A stretch of 32,739 nucleotides of DNA from Tissierellia bacterium (lineage in GTDB: Bacteria > Bacillota > Clostridia > Tissierellales > Tepidimicrobiaceae), in assembly GCA_012728075.1 (NCBI GenBank), contig JAAYFV010000157.1, positions 1-32,739 of the forward strand. The letters run 5' to 3'. The translations under genes and the position numbers were made by a program. Positions 5,201 through 19,399 of the stretch are shown piece by piece. Positions within the stretch are counted from its first letter, which is position 1. Every line of letters begins with the position of its first letter. The notes under the pieces were generated by a model. The model did not search any database. It worked only from the letters and a program-made list of their open reading frames with translations, and was not told the origin of the DNA.

Positions 5201-6301
5201 TTATTTGTTTAATACCGCTTTAAGTTCAGTTATAAATTTCTCCGTTTGCTCTACGGTTCCAGTACTAACCCTAAGCCAATTATCCCATCCCCATAGGTAT
5301 CCTGGTCTTATTATTACTCCTCTTTTCATTAGCTCTTCAAATGCAATCTTTGAGCTAGTTCCAATATTAACCCATGTAAAATTAGCATTGGATTTTACAT
5401 ATTCAAGCCCTAAGCTATCGAAGAATTCCTCCATCATCTCTAAAGATTTATAATTTAATTTAACTGTTTTATCAATATGCTCTTGGTCTTCTAATGCTGC
5501 TAAAGCTGCAACTTGAGCAAGTCTGTTGACATTAAACACACCTTTAACTTTACTCATTTCTGTAGCAATCTCCTTTGATGTAAGGGCAAAGCCTACACGT
5601 ACAGCTGCTAAACCACTTACTTTGGAAAAAGTTCTTAAAATAATAGTATTTGGTCTTTTATTTAATATTTCCAAAGTTTCAGGATAATCTGGATTAACCC
5701 TAGCAAAATCATAATATGCTTCATCAAATACAATAACTATATCCTCTGGCACATTGTCAACTAGATAATTGATCTCTTCTCTTGTCATTATATTGGGTAT
5801 AGGATTATTTGGATTACATACATATATTAATTTAGTCTTATCATTTATATTCTCAACAAAAGCTTCAAAATCATGTTTGTAATCTTCTGTAAGAGGAATT
5901 TCCACTGGTACTCCTCCCATATGAGTTACACTATTAGAGTATATATTAAAAGTTGTATCAGCCATAATTGCTTCATCGTCAGTATTTATAAAAGTCTGAG
6001 CAATTATTCTTAATACCTGCTCACCCCCGTTCCCTATAACTATGTTTTCATAATCTAATCCATATTTTTTAGCTAATGCATGTCTTAATTCCATGGCTCC
6101 AGCATCAGGATAAACATTTAAATTTTTTAATTCATTTTTTACAGCTTCAACAGCCTTTGGAGATGGTCCTAGTTGGTTTTCATTAGATGCTAACTTTACA
6201 ACATCTGTCAAACCATATTCCTTTTGTACCTCCTCTACAGGTTTCCCAGGTACATAAGGTTGTAACTTTGATAATTCATTTCTAAATAGACTTTTTGACA
6301 T
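5201..6301 (-). CDS. HisC-like class I/II aminotransferase
   Basis: A PLP-dependent aminotransferase of 366 residues, most like histidinol-phosphate/aromatic aminotransferases. The N-terminal [12 protein letters not shown], the PLP lysine K227 in RTFSK, R235 in RVGF and the carboxylate-binding R344 (LRVSTG) are in place. The usual HisC stretch NPNNPTGT reads NPNNPIPN (163-170), a clear departure. There are no other histidine-biosynthesis genes here. It lies inside the operon between ptb and buk, downstream of iorAB, so a catabolic role feeding 2-oxo acids (aromatic or branched-chain) to IorAB is more likely than histidine synthesis. The ATG at 6299-6301 is preceded by AAGGAGA. Substrate is inferred. 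Confidence 0.85.
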
Positions 6302-15171: not shown

Positions 15172-15819
15172 TTAGTTTCTAACATAATCGGATTTGTTGT
15201 TCAAGAAATAGGACAAAGTAAACAAGGATTCATTTAAATGAACATTTTCTATTATTATATCATCATCCACTTTTAAATCTGCTGGTGCAAAGTTCCAAAT
15301 ACCTTTTATTCCACTTCTCACATATATATCTGCTATATCCTGAGCATTTTCTTTAGGAGTAGTAATAATGCCTATTTCCACATCATTTTCTTTGATAAAC
15401 TCCTCAAGTTCATCCACATCTCTTATTTCTATATCTCTAATCTTAAGCCCTATTAATTTGGGATTCTTATCAAATAAAGAAAGTATCTTAAATCCAGCAT
15501 CTTCAAATCCTTTGTAATTGGCTACTGCCTGACCTAAATTTCCAGCACCTACTATTACAGTATTATATGTTTTATCCAAACCTAATATCTTACCTAATTG
15601 GTGATGTAATTCTTCTACATTATATCCATATCCTTGTTGTCCAAATCCACCAAAATTGTTCAAATCTTGTCTTATCTGGGATGCAGTAAAACCAGTCATC
15701 TTACTCAACTCTTGGGATGATATTCTATTTATACCCTTCTTAAGTAGCTCTCCCAAATATCTATAGTATTTAGGTAGTCTTCGAATAACAGTTATGGATA
15801 CTCTATTCTCTTTATCCAC
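15172..15819 (-). CDS. rex: Redox-sensing transcriptional repressor Rex
   Basis: Rex binds DNA when NADH is low and lets go when NADH rises, controlling fermentation and electron-transfer genes. An N-terminal winged-helix part (ISSQELSKMTGFTASQIRQDLNNFG) precedes a Rossmann domain with VIVGAGNLGQAVANY, and a C-terminal swapped helix closes the protein. I start it at GTG 15817-15819: a GGGGGG ribosome site is 6 bases upstream, and the protein then begins M-DKENRVS like other Rex proteins, 215 residues. An upstream ATG at 15862-15864 lies only 14 bases after the -10 box, with no ribosome site. It sits directly upstream of the acd-etfBA operon, a usual Rex target. Confidence 0.95.
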   Translation of the reverse strand: MDKENRVSITVIRRLPKYYRYLGELLKKGINRISSQELSKMTGFTASQIRQDLNNFGGFGQQGYGYNVEELHHQLGKILGLDKTYNTVIVGAGNLGQAVANYKGFEDAGFKILSLFDKNPKLIGLKIRDIEIRDVDELEEFIKENDVEIGIITTPKENAQDIADIYVRSGIKGIWNFAPADLKVDDDIIIENVHLNESLFTLSYFLNNKSDYVRN

Positions 15820-15878
15820 TTGTTTCCCCCCTATTCGTCCTCGTCTATAAATATATCTTTCCATTTTATTTTATTTTT

Positions 15879-16318: not shown

Positions 16319-18226
16319 ATGATAATTCTTTCATGTAATAATATATCAAAATCTTATGGAACAGATGAAATATTAAAGGATATATCCTTTACCGTAGAAG
16401 ATAGAGATAAAATTGGACTTATAGGTCTTAATGGTTCAGGTAAAACCACCCTTTTTAATATATTATCGGGAGAAACATATATGGACAATGGGAAAATATA
16501 CTTTCAAAAAGATTTAAAAATAGGTTATCTAAAACAACATACCAATATAAAAAGCAACGATTCCATCTTTGACGAATGCTTGAAAGTATTTGAACCTCTT
16601 ATTCAAATGGAAAAAGAATTGAGAAAAATGGAACAGGATATGAGTATAGAGGGTAGTAAATCTAATTCTACTAAATTAGAAAAACTGATGAATGACTATG
16701 CCCAGCTTATGGAGAGCTTTAATAATAGCAATGGTTATGGTTATAGATCAGAGATCAAGGGAGTTCTAAAAGGTTTAGGTTTTAAAGAAGAAGAAATGAA
16801 TAAGAAGGTAAATCTACTAAGTGGAGGTCAAAAAGCTAGATTATCTTTGGCTAAATTGCTTCTAGAAAAACCAGAGTTATTGCTATTAGACGAACCTACT
16901 AATCATTTAGATATAGAGGCTATTAGTTGGTTAGAAAATTATCTAAAAGAATACTCTGGTGCAATGCTAATCATATCCCATGATAGATATTTTTTAGATA
17001 ATATAGTGTCTAGAATATTCTTATTGGAAAATAAAGAAATTAAAGTATATAATATGAACTATTCTAAATATACAGAACAAAGAAAAAAAGATATAGAATT
17101 GTTAAAAAAGAAATATGAAGATCAGCAAAAGGAAATAAAAAGACAAGAAGAAATAATAAAAAGATTTTCTAACTATGGTGGTAGTCGCTATATAAAGCAA
17201 GCCCAATCTCGACAAAAGATGTTAAATAAAATGAAGCTAATAGATAAACCAATGGACAATAAAAAAGCTAAAATAACCTTTGAACCAAAGATCAAAAGCG
17301 GTAGAGATGTTTTAAGAGTTGAAAAACTTTGTAAATCCTTTGATGGAGAAAAACTTTTAGAAAATATTGATTTTGCTATATATAGAGGGGAAAAAGTTGG
17401 TTTAATTGGGCCTAATGGAATTGGAAAAACTACCCTATTCAAGATGATATTGAACCAAATTCCTTACGATAGCGGTATTATATCCCTAGGTCATCATGTT
17501 CATATTGGATATTTTGATCAGGAACAGACTAAGCTTAATCTAGATAAAACCGTAATAGATGAAATATGGGATGATAATCCTAAACTAAATTATTATGAAA
17601 TTCGCTCTATACTAAGCAGATTTCTATTCATTGGAGACGATATATTCAAAGAAGTAGGAGAATTAAGTGGAGGAGAAAGAAGTAGACTTGCCCTTCTAAA
17701 GATGATGCTTTCTAATGCTAATTTCCTCCTTATGGATGAACCTACCAATCATTTAGATATTGATTCAAAAGAAGTTTTAGAGGATGCTCTAATAGATTAT
17801 GAAGGCACTTTGTTTGTCATATCTCATGATAGATATTTTTTAAATAAAGTAGTGGACAAGATATTAGAATTAACAGAAGAAGGTATAAAAGAGTATATTG
17901 GGAACTATGATTATTACTTGGAAAAGAAAAATGAAATTATAGTTGAAGAAGAAGAGGATTATAAGACAAAGACCCAAATAAAACTAGAACGAAAAAAAGA
18001 AAGAGAAGAATTAGAATTTATAAAGAAAAAGAAAGAGGAGATAATAAGATTAGAGAAAAGGATTGAGCAAAAAGAAATGGATATAGAAAAGATTGATATG
18101 TTACTTTGTAAGCCAAATATATATGATGAGCCTGAAAAAGTGATAGAGCTTACTAAAAAAAGAGAAGCTTTAGAGGCAAAAATCAATTCCCTTTATGAAC
18201 AATGGATAATATTAACAGAAGAATAG
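16319..18226 (+). CDS. ABC-F family ATPase (YdiF/Uup-like)
   Basis: A soluble twin-ATPase of the ABC-F class, which act on ribosomes. It has no membrane segments. Domain 1: Walker A GLNGSGKT (36-43), signature LSGGQ (about 167), Walker B LLLDEPTNHLD. The interdomain linker (about 245-310) is highly charged. Domain 2: Walker A GPNGIGKT (about 364), signature LSGGE (about 448), Walker B LLMDEPTNHLD. A Lys/Glu-rich coiled coil fills about 540-635, as in Uup and YdiF. The 635-residue length fits. ATG 16319 follows AGGAG. A housekeeping translation role is more likely than antibiotic resistance because no drug-specific linker features or leader are evident. Confidence 0.92.
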   Translation: MIILSCNNISKSYGTDEILKDISFTVEDRDKIGLIGLNGSGKTTLFNILSGETYMDNGKIYFQKDLKIGYLKQHTNIKSNDSIFDECLKVFEPLIQMEKELRKMEQDMSIEGSKSNSTKLEKLMNDYAQLMESFNNSNGYGYRSEIKGVLKGLGFKEEEMNKKVNLLSGGQKARLSLAKLLLEKPELLLLDEPTNHLDIEAISWLENYLKEYSGAMLIISHDRYFLDNIVSRIFLLENKEIKVYNMNYSKYTEQRKKDIELLKKKYEDQQKEIKRQEEIIKRFSNYGGSRYIKQAQSRQKMLNKMKLIDKPMDNKKAKITFEPKIKSGRDVLRVEKLCKSFDGEKLLENIDFAIYRGEKVGLIGPNGIGKTTLFKMILNQIPYDSGIISLGHHVHIGYFDQEQTKLNLDKTVIDEIWDDNPKLNYYEIRSILSRFLFIGDDIFKEVGELSGGERSRLALLKMMLSNANFLLMDEPTNHLDIDSKEVLEDALIDYEGTLFVISHDRYFLNKVVDKILELTEEGIKEYIGNYDYYLEKKNEIIVEEEEDYKTKTQIKLERKKEREELEFIKKKKEEIIRLEKRIEQKEMDIEKIDMLLCKPNIYDEPEKVIELTKKREALEAKINSLYEQWIILTEE

Positions 18227-18236
18227 TTTCCCCATT

Positions 18237-18388
18237 TTATCCACAAACTATGCACAGAATCCACAGAATTATCCCCAATAGTATGTCCCATTGTTAAGGG
18301 ATGGAGAGGAATTTCCCACATTATCCACATTTTTTTATGGTAAACCAAATCCCTATCTGTGGAAATAATGTGGAAAAATTGTTGATAA
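18237..18388. promoter_or_regulatory. Cluster of DnaA-box-like sequences
   Basis: Two exact TTATCCACA boxes (18237-18245 and 18321-18329) lie in the gap between the convergent ABC-F and tsaD genes. Single-mismatch boxes are TTATCCCCA (18269-18277), TGTGGAAAA (18369-18377) and TGTTGATAA (18380-18388). Two-mismatch copies are at 18257-18265 (GAATCCACA), 18312-18320 (TTTCCCACA) and 18358-18366 (TGTGGAAAT). Some form an inverted pair that could fold as a bulged stem (about 18316-18374) and double as a bidirectional terminator. There is no dnaA, dnaN or AT-rich unwinding element next to it, so it is not an obvious origin. Confidence 0.6.
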
Positions 18389-19399
18389 TTATCCTTTTAG
18401 CTCTAAATTTGGTTCTACGTTTAAATGTAAATCTGAGACATGCCCTTTTATATAATGAAAATAAGCGGCCGATCCTATCATAGCTCCATTGTCTGTGCAT
18501 AATATTTTAGAAGGATAAAGTACTTTTATTCCTTCTTCCTTTCCCCTATCCATCATCAAATTCCTCAATCCTTCATTAGCTGCCACCCCACCAGCCATAA
18601 CTATTTTATCCGATTTCCTCTCTTTGGCTAATCTTATGGATTTTTCCACTAGTACTTCTATTACAGAATGTTGGAAGGAAGCTGCCACATCTTCAATTAT
18701 TATTTTTTCATCCTTTTGTTTCTTTTGATTCAAATAATTTAATACAGCTGTTTTTAAGCCGCTAAAACTAAAATCATAGCTATCCTGTTCCAAATATACC
18801 CTAGGGAATTCTATCGCATCTTTATCTCCTTCTTTAGCTAATTTATCTATTAAAGGCCCTCCAGGATAAGATAGACCTAAAGCCCTGGCTACTTTATCAA
18901 AAGCTTCCCCTGCAGCATCATCTCTTGTCCTACCTACTAATTCATATTCTGTATAGGATTTGACTTGGACTAAATAAGTATGTCCTCCTGATACCACTAA
19001 ACATGTAAAGGGAGGTTCTAAATCCTTATGAACAATATAATTTGCACATACATGTCCTTCTATATGGTTTACCCCCACTATAGGTTTATCAAGAGCATAG
19101 GCTATACCCTTTGCACTGGATATTCCTACTAATAAAGCACCTACTAATCCAGGTCCTTGGGTAACGCCAACTAAATCTATATCGTTAAAGCCTATATTGG
19201 CTTCATCTAAAGCTTGTTGAATTATCATATTAATATTTTCTATATGTTTTCTAGAGGCTACTTCAGGTACTACTCCTCCATACTCTCTGTGAATTTCAAT
19301 CTGGGAAGATATAATATTGGACAATACTTCCCTTCCACCTCTTAAAACAGCACAAGAGGTTTCGTCACAGGAAGTTTCTATTGCTAATGTTATGGTCAT
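18389..19399 (-). CDS. tsaD: tRNA N6-adenosine threonylcarbamoyltransferase TsaD
   Basis: TsaD transfers the threonylcarbamoyl group to A37 of ANN-decoding tRNAs, working with TsaB and TsaE. It is an ASKHA-fold metalloenzyme. [15 protein letters not shown] is at the N-terminus, metal-binding His112 and His116 are in NHIEGH, and VSGGHTYL and [12 protein letters not shown] follow. The 336 residues are standard. ATG 19397-19399 follows GAGGTGA. It is last of tsaE-tsaB-rimI-tsaD, 12 bases after rimI, and ends at the DnaA-box cluster. Confidence 0.97.

Follow-up and report, generated by a model that had tools for sequence, protein, structure and literature searches.

The window analysed here is a 32,739-nt stretch from a Tissierellia bacterium (contig JAAYFV010000157.1 of assembly GCA_012728075.1), in which two convergent genes flank a short intergenic region that is densely populated with matches to the DnaA box. 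One of these genes, tsaD, serves t6A synthesis and was identified by profile TIGR03723, scoring 449.8 bits where the cut-off is 296.1; the family name gcp_kae1 agrees with gcp being the older name of tsaD. The other encodes an ABC-F family ATPase and occupies the position of ydiF in B. subtilis, which we take to be an ABC-F gene. The two stop codons are separated by 162 bp, with the ABC-F stop at 18226 and the tsaD end at 18389, and the box cluster at 18237-18388 falls within this interval. Beyond the ABC-F gene lies rex (15172-15864, reverse strand), while rimI, tsaB and tsaE come after tsaD. The features of the junction are listed below, with offsets that refer to the box geometry described further on.

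16319 to 18226, forward strand: gene for the ABC-F family ATPase, corresponding in position to ydiF of B. subtilis and running towards tsaD
18237 to 18245, forward strand: DnaA box TTATCCACA, exact match, geometry offset 84
18248 to 18256, forward strand: weak DnaA box CTATGCACA, two mismatches, offset 73, a position predicted by relatives
18257 to 18265, forward strand: weak DnaA box GAATCCACA, two mismatches, offset 64, a position predicted by relatives
18269 to 18277, forward strand: DnaA box TTATCCCCA, one mismatch, geometry offset 52
18312 to 18320, forward strand: weak DnaA box TTTCCCACA, two mismatches, offset 9, abutting the box at 18321, a position predicted by relatives
18321 to 18329, forward strand: DnaA box TTATCCACA, exact match, geometry offset 0
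18358 to 18366, reverse strand: weak inverted DnaA box ATTTCCACA, two mismatches
18369 to 18377, reverse strand: inverted DnaA box TTTTCCACA, one mismatch
18380 to 18388, reverse strand: inverted DnaA box TTATCAACA, one mismatch, immediately past the tsaD stop codon
18389 to 19399, reverse strand: tsaD (gcp), t6A synthesis, its 3′ end adjoining the cluster

The first-pass annotation had described two exact and three one-mismatch boxes, plus weaker copies, between 18237 and 18388. These boxes were confirmed and four two-mismatch boxes were added, giving nine boxes with at most two mismatches in 152 bp, six of them on the forward strand (opposite to tsaD) and three on the reverse strand. At this density the cluster is unusual for its surroundings, as 784 of the 858 overlapping 152-bp segments of the window contain no box with at most one mismatch and only 5 contain at least three. 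The window as a whole is mildly enriched, with 23 sites against 13.4 expected, a number reached in 4 of 100 shuffles. Throughout the 2.38-Mb assembly the exact box occurs 58 times, compared with 33 occurrences of the reversed word, and 4 of the 58 belong to a duplicated contig end. Contig C124 of genome G000 opens with 3.2 kb that recur as the reverse complement at its far end, probably an assembly artefact, and this duplicated end doubles one cluster in the genome counts.

Comparison with relatives drew on two samples. tsaD was sought in 100 genomes of the window's GTDB order, where 97 had a match over the cut-off, and 12 kb around the gene were retrieved from the 96 of these other than the window's own, yielding 95 usable loci. 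The wider phylum sample comprised 119 searched genomes, from which 69 loci were read, the window's own being excluded. In the order, 63 of 95 loci had at least three boxes in the first 250 bp downstream of the tsaD stop, as did 6 of 3,999 other 250-bp intervals of the same stretches; a density comparable to that noted in the first-pass annotation is thus rare at other sites. These 250-bp regions together hold 310 boxes, whereas 60 permuted versions of the consensus word gave a mean of 8.9 matches and a largest count of 60, and placed three or more matches in at most 6 of the 95 loci for any word.

These counts bear on the possibility that the cluster reflects base composition or chance descent, with box-like words occurring in AT-rich intergenic DNA free of any function. 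The DnaA-box 9-mer does suit AT-rich DNA, and the permuted words that reached 60 matches or occupied 6 loci illustrate what composition can produce. Against the 310 boxes and 63 loci observed, however, and with a box geometry that is retained across spacers of random sequence (see below), we regard this explanation as very improbable.

When the limit was set at 450 bp from the tsaD stop, a cluster of at least three boxes was found in 65 of the 95 loci of the order. In the phylum sample, at least three boxes follow tsaD in 40 of 69 loci, or in 34 of 60 families when a single locus is taken from each. Close relatives of the window's host, Gudongella and Soehngenia, carry it. Fewer than three boxes were present at this place in 30 of the 95 order loci and in 26 of the 60 phylum families, and C. 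difficile, Acetoanaerobium, Monoglobus, Paenibacillus cellulosilyticus, Listeria and Enterococcus gallinarum showed no cluster behind tsaD, which indicates that the element is dispensable. Several apparent losses are displacements: in five loci (L066, L111, L177, L189 and L202) clusters with recognisable spacing start 423 to 2,534 bp downstream, and a sixth (L199) is less regular. In Staphylococcus aureus a MutS-like gene separates the ABC-F gene from tsaD, and seven boxes lie between this inserted gene and the ABC-F 3′ end (L216:6344-6513, NZ_CP077935.1). The corresponding region behind the ABC-F gene holds no cluster in Paenibacillus (L219) or Latilactobacillus (L220). No tsaD was found in viral contigs, and Bacillus is absent among the best 40 of 65 tsaD matches in the plasmid collection. 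Some megabase records of that collection (for example NZ_CP154629.1 and NZ_CP054613.1) contain tsaD and resemble whole or partial chromosomes.

The conserved clusters share not only their location but also an internal arrangement. Along the direction of tsaD, boxes on the opposite strand recur at offsets of 0, 9, about 52, about 64 and about 73, forming an abutting pair followed at a distance by an ordered triple. The window has boxes at 0, 9, 52, 64, 73 and 84 and a composite score of 13, although three of these six are weak and are singled out only by the geometry of the relatives. A composite score of at least 12 was obtained for 48 of the 65 cluster loci of the order and for 0 of 95 in the remaining stretches, where the maximum was 6; in 44 of the 48 the gap between pair and triple is 51 or 52. 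Scored on the phylum sample, the true geometry yields a mean of 11.5, compared with a mean of 7.1 and a maximum of 8.9 for 60 altered geometries. The inter-box distances 9, 12 and 21 were seen 40, 17 and 20 times in that sample, and 1,000 random placements gave at most 15, 15 and 14, respectively.

Among 29 aligned loci, pairwise identity in the long spacer is 0.32, against 0.29 expected from composition, so that it is the distance that has been kept and not the sequence. The boxes in these alignments are 0.80 identical, a value that is partly built in and is not independent evidence, because box score decided which loci were aligned. Such fixed spacing suggests a role for an ordered complex, and it amounts to more than passive titration would need.

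The direction of the gene beyond the cluster differs between the two samples. Among cluster loci of the order it is convergent with tsaD in 60 of 65, whereas among those of the phylum sample it is co-directional with tsaD in 29 of 34, and the cluster persists despite this change. The earlier statement that no promoter is expected here accordingly holds within the order, where the neighbour is mostly convergent, but less so in the other phylum families, where, with a next ORF that is mostly co-directional, the cluster could be a promoter region. The suggestion that the same DNA doubles as a terminator did not hold up, as a consensus scan of 18150-18480 found no G+C-rich hairpin followed by a T run. 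RNA of the tsaD strand is predicted to fold 18358-18377 against 18312-18329 into a long hairpin (z -2.1), but this stem has no U run behind it, and the terminator reading was not adopted. A similar inverted-box pair is also found in a congener (L104).

DnaA bound at the 3′ ends might instead make the locus a site of gene control, affecting termination of tsaD and the ABC-F gene, antisense transcription, or the promoter of the next gene. The co-directional ORFs of the phylum sample and the capacity of the inverted boxes to pair within the tsaD transcript would fit such a role. It accords poorly with the convergent neighbours that prevail in the order, with the result of the terminator scan and with the persistence of the cluster beside differing neighbours in differing orientations, and we therefore consider it distinctly improbable.

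The observation that the cluster is not near dnaA was correct: dnaA is located on another contig, C139, and none of the window neighbours tested is dnaA. In G006, a complete genome from the same genus, the cluster lies about 402 kb from dnaA, or 17% of the chromosome. Among 23 one-chromosome genomes measured (seven further ones were left out of the table), the distance from tsaD to dnaA is 6-33% of the chromosome in all. The range is 6-33% in the 16 genomes with the cluster and 10-30% in the 7 without, which makes nearness to the origin a property of tsaD; as the two groups do not differ, a specific chromosomal position was not used as evidence. The density of boxes resembles that of oriC, which could prompt the idea of a secondary or former replication origin. 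An oriC would be expected adjacent to dnaA or dnaN, however, and in this genome dnaA on C139 has dense boxes of its own on both sides (C139:7057-7421 and 5477-5605). Moreover, DnaA-box clusters (DBCs) in B. subtilis sequester DnaA and do not act as origins (PMC11019786). An origin at the tsaD junction is, in our estimation, scarcely credible.

The closest known counterpart is the region between gcp and ydiF in B. subtilis, one of six DBCs reportedly described by Okumura in 2012. Like that region, the window cluster is flanked by the 3′ ends of a tsaD (gcp) and an ABC-F (ydiF) gene, has about ten DnaA boxes, and is far from dnaA in what may be an origin-proximal part of the chromosome. In the in vitro study of Smith and Grossman (2015), the region downstream of gcp and of ydiF (region 4, with 10 sites) is among those most strongly bound by DnaA, with a Kd of 0.15 uM for ATP-DnaA and 0.33 for ADP-DnaA, and, with a 16-fold preference for ATP-DnaA at 55 nM, it is also among the most selective for this form (PMC4447404). 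Two reviews describe six DnaA-box clusters outside oriC in B. subtilis and report that deletion of all six leads to early initiation (PMC13220808, PMC5295017), and a cluster relocated to the terminus works less well (PMC5010248). The two systems also differ, as the window's host belongs to a different class of bacteria, YabA was not found in the host's order, and DnaA binding at the window cluster is predicted from its boxes. The likeness rests on the junction and the number of boxes, the 0/9/52/64/73 geometry being known from the sampled loci, outside which B. subtilis lies.

Dense DnaA boxes outside oriC, a feature of DBCs, are present in the window, and the junction is matched by a tsaD gene over the cut-off, a convergent ABC-F neighbour and rex beyond it. 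We therefore consider it likely that the window cluster is a DBC, a DnaA-binding array outside oriC that titrates DnaA-ATP, at the junction where B. subtilis has its gcp/ydiF cluster. The same place and spacing in relatives, together with the match to a DnaA-binding site of B. subtilis, make a long-standing brake on chromosome replication its probable role; in the Tissierellia bacterium itself, binding to this ancient array and a restraint on initiation are probable by analogy. In such a scheme, DnaA-ATP would load cooperatively onto the ordered boxes, with the abutting pair about 43 bp from the ordered triple, and the loaded array would take initiator DnaA out of circulation. Because the array would be copied early in the cycle, its binding capacity would double soon after initiation, which might discourage a second firing of oriC.

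The first-pass annotation had proposed a site resembling datA or a DBC. The DBC half is favoured by the tsaD/ABC-F junction, the conserved geometry and the rarity of such density elsewhere, and the datA half found no support in the form of DnaA-ATP hydrolysis. The window cluster does resemble datA of E. coli in comprising several DnaA boxes outside oriC that are proposed to lower free DnaA-ATP after initiation. The E. coli DARS1 and DARS2 loci are likewise intergenic and contain ordered DnaA boxes in a conserved arrangement, features that the window cluster shares; DARS reactivates DnaA, an activity that is unsupported for the cluster considered here. According to a 2026 review, datA acts together with IHF to promote hydrolysis of ATP, and datA and DARS loci are absent from B. 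subtilis (PMC13220808); the window site is predicted from its boxes.

A counterpart of datA or DARS could nevertheless take the form of an ordered regulatory platform, in which the geometry builds a DnaA complex that alters the nucleotide state of DnaA (by ATP hydrolysis or exchange) or passes DnaA to partners. Conservation of the geometry between families with dissimilar spacers would be in keeping with such a platform, as would the selectivity of the B. subtilis gcp/ydiF region for ATP-DnaA, which few other sites equal (PMC4447404). In addition, YabA (PF06156) was over the cut-off in 0 of the 100 genomes of the order, although the control search recovers it from both B. subtilis and L. lactis, so that other brakes on DnaA may be needed. 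On the other side, a B. subtilis DBC has been shown only to titrate DnaA-ATP (PMC5010248); the spacing could also be fixed by cooperative binding alone. We keep a datA-like activity as a rival to titration by a DBC, albeit a rather unlikely one.

We also put forward one broader proposal, which is speculative and rather unlikely. On this view the tsaD-linked array would be an ancient DnaA-controlling device of fixed architecture (an abutting box pair, a spacer of about four turns and an ordered triple), common to Bacillota and Bacillota_A. It would act as an ordered ATP-DnaA assembly that sets the timing of initiation, in the role of E. coli datA and DARS, in bacteria that are not known to have such elements. 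The DBC as a kind of element is already known, and the conserved architecture is the part worth following. What is known of extra-origin DnaA-box clusters in Gram-positive bacteria comes mainly from a single species, in which they are regarded as a titration system and their effect is debated. That the same junction and the same box spacing are kept across the phylum is an argument for selection on the arrangement itself, and the conserved spacing turns a loose idea of titration into a testable one. It also provides a clear element to study in clostridia, whose control of DnaA is poorly understood; in the order sampled, YabA is missing from the matches over the cut-off. Among the papers listed by the literature search, one alone ties the gcp/ydiF junction to DnaA (PMC4447404), and none treats its conservation or box spacing beyond B. 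subtilis, although Okumura 2012 and Ishikawa 2007, which lay outside the search, may discuss conservation. New here are the tsaD-linked conservation, the fixed geometry and the displaced but intact clusters.

Presence of the cluster is associated with Spo0A. Within the order, the cluster occurs at 57 of the 63 loci whose genomes have Spo0A over the cut-off and at 8 of the 32 whose genomes do not (Fisher p 1.6e-10, uncorrected for relatedness), and when one family (f4) is removed the counts are 57 of 63 and 6 of 15 (p 8e-5). The phylum sample gives 38 of 62 with Spo0A and 2 of 7 without, which is not significant (p 0.12). S. aureus, a non-spore-former, has a cluster, and the spore-formers C. 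difficile and P. cellulosilyticus have none after tsaD. The link between cluster and Spo0A is a correlation.

Two other clusters of the window's genome, which also stand out in G006, resemble the one at tsaD in having at least five DnaA boxes in 200 bp outside oriC, and differ from it in their spacings. The first, between cwlD and gcvT and upstream of the latter (the genes were identified in G006, L167), occurs at C124:2814-2955 of G000 (L033) and is kept in G006 (C1:1922281-1922421, L167) and G058 (C1:1354077-1354225, L168), with box spacing that is alike in the three genomes and unlike that of the tsaD cluster. The second is found on C208 of G000 (L036:2871-2953) and is kept in G006 (C1:380914-380997, L166), where it was identified as lying upstream of the ribosome hibernation factor gene hpf and downstream of a fliS-linked ORF. 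Scored against the tsaD geometry, the cwlD/gcvT clusters reach at best 8-10 and the hpf clusters 11-12, below the median of 15 for clusters at tsaD.
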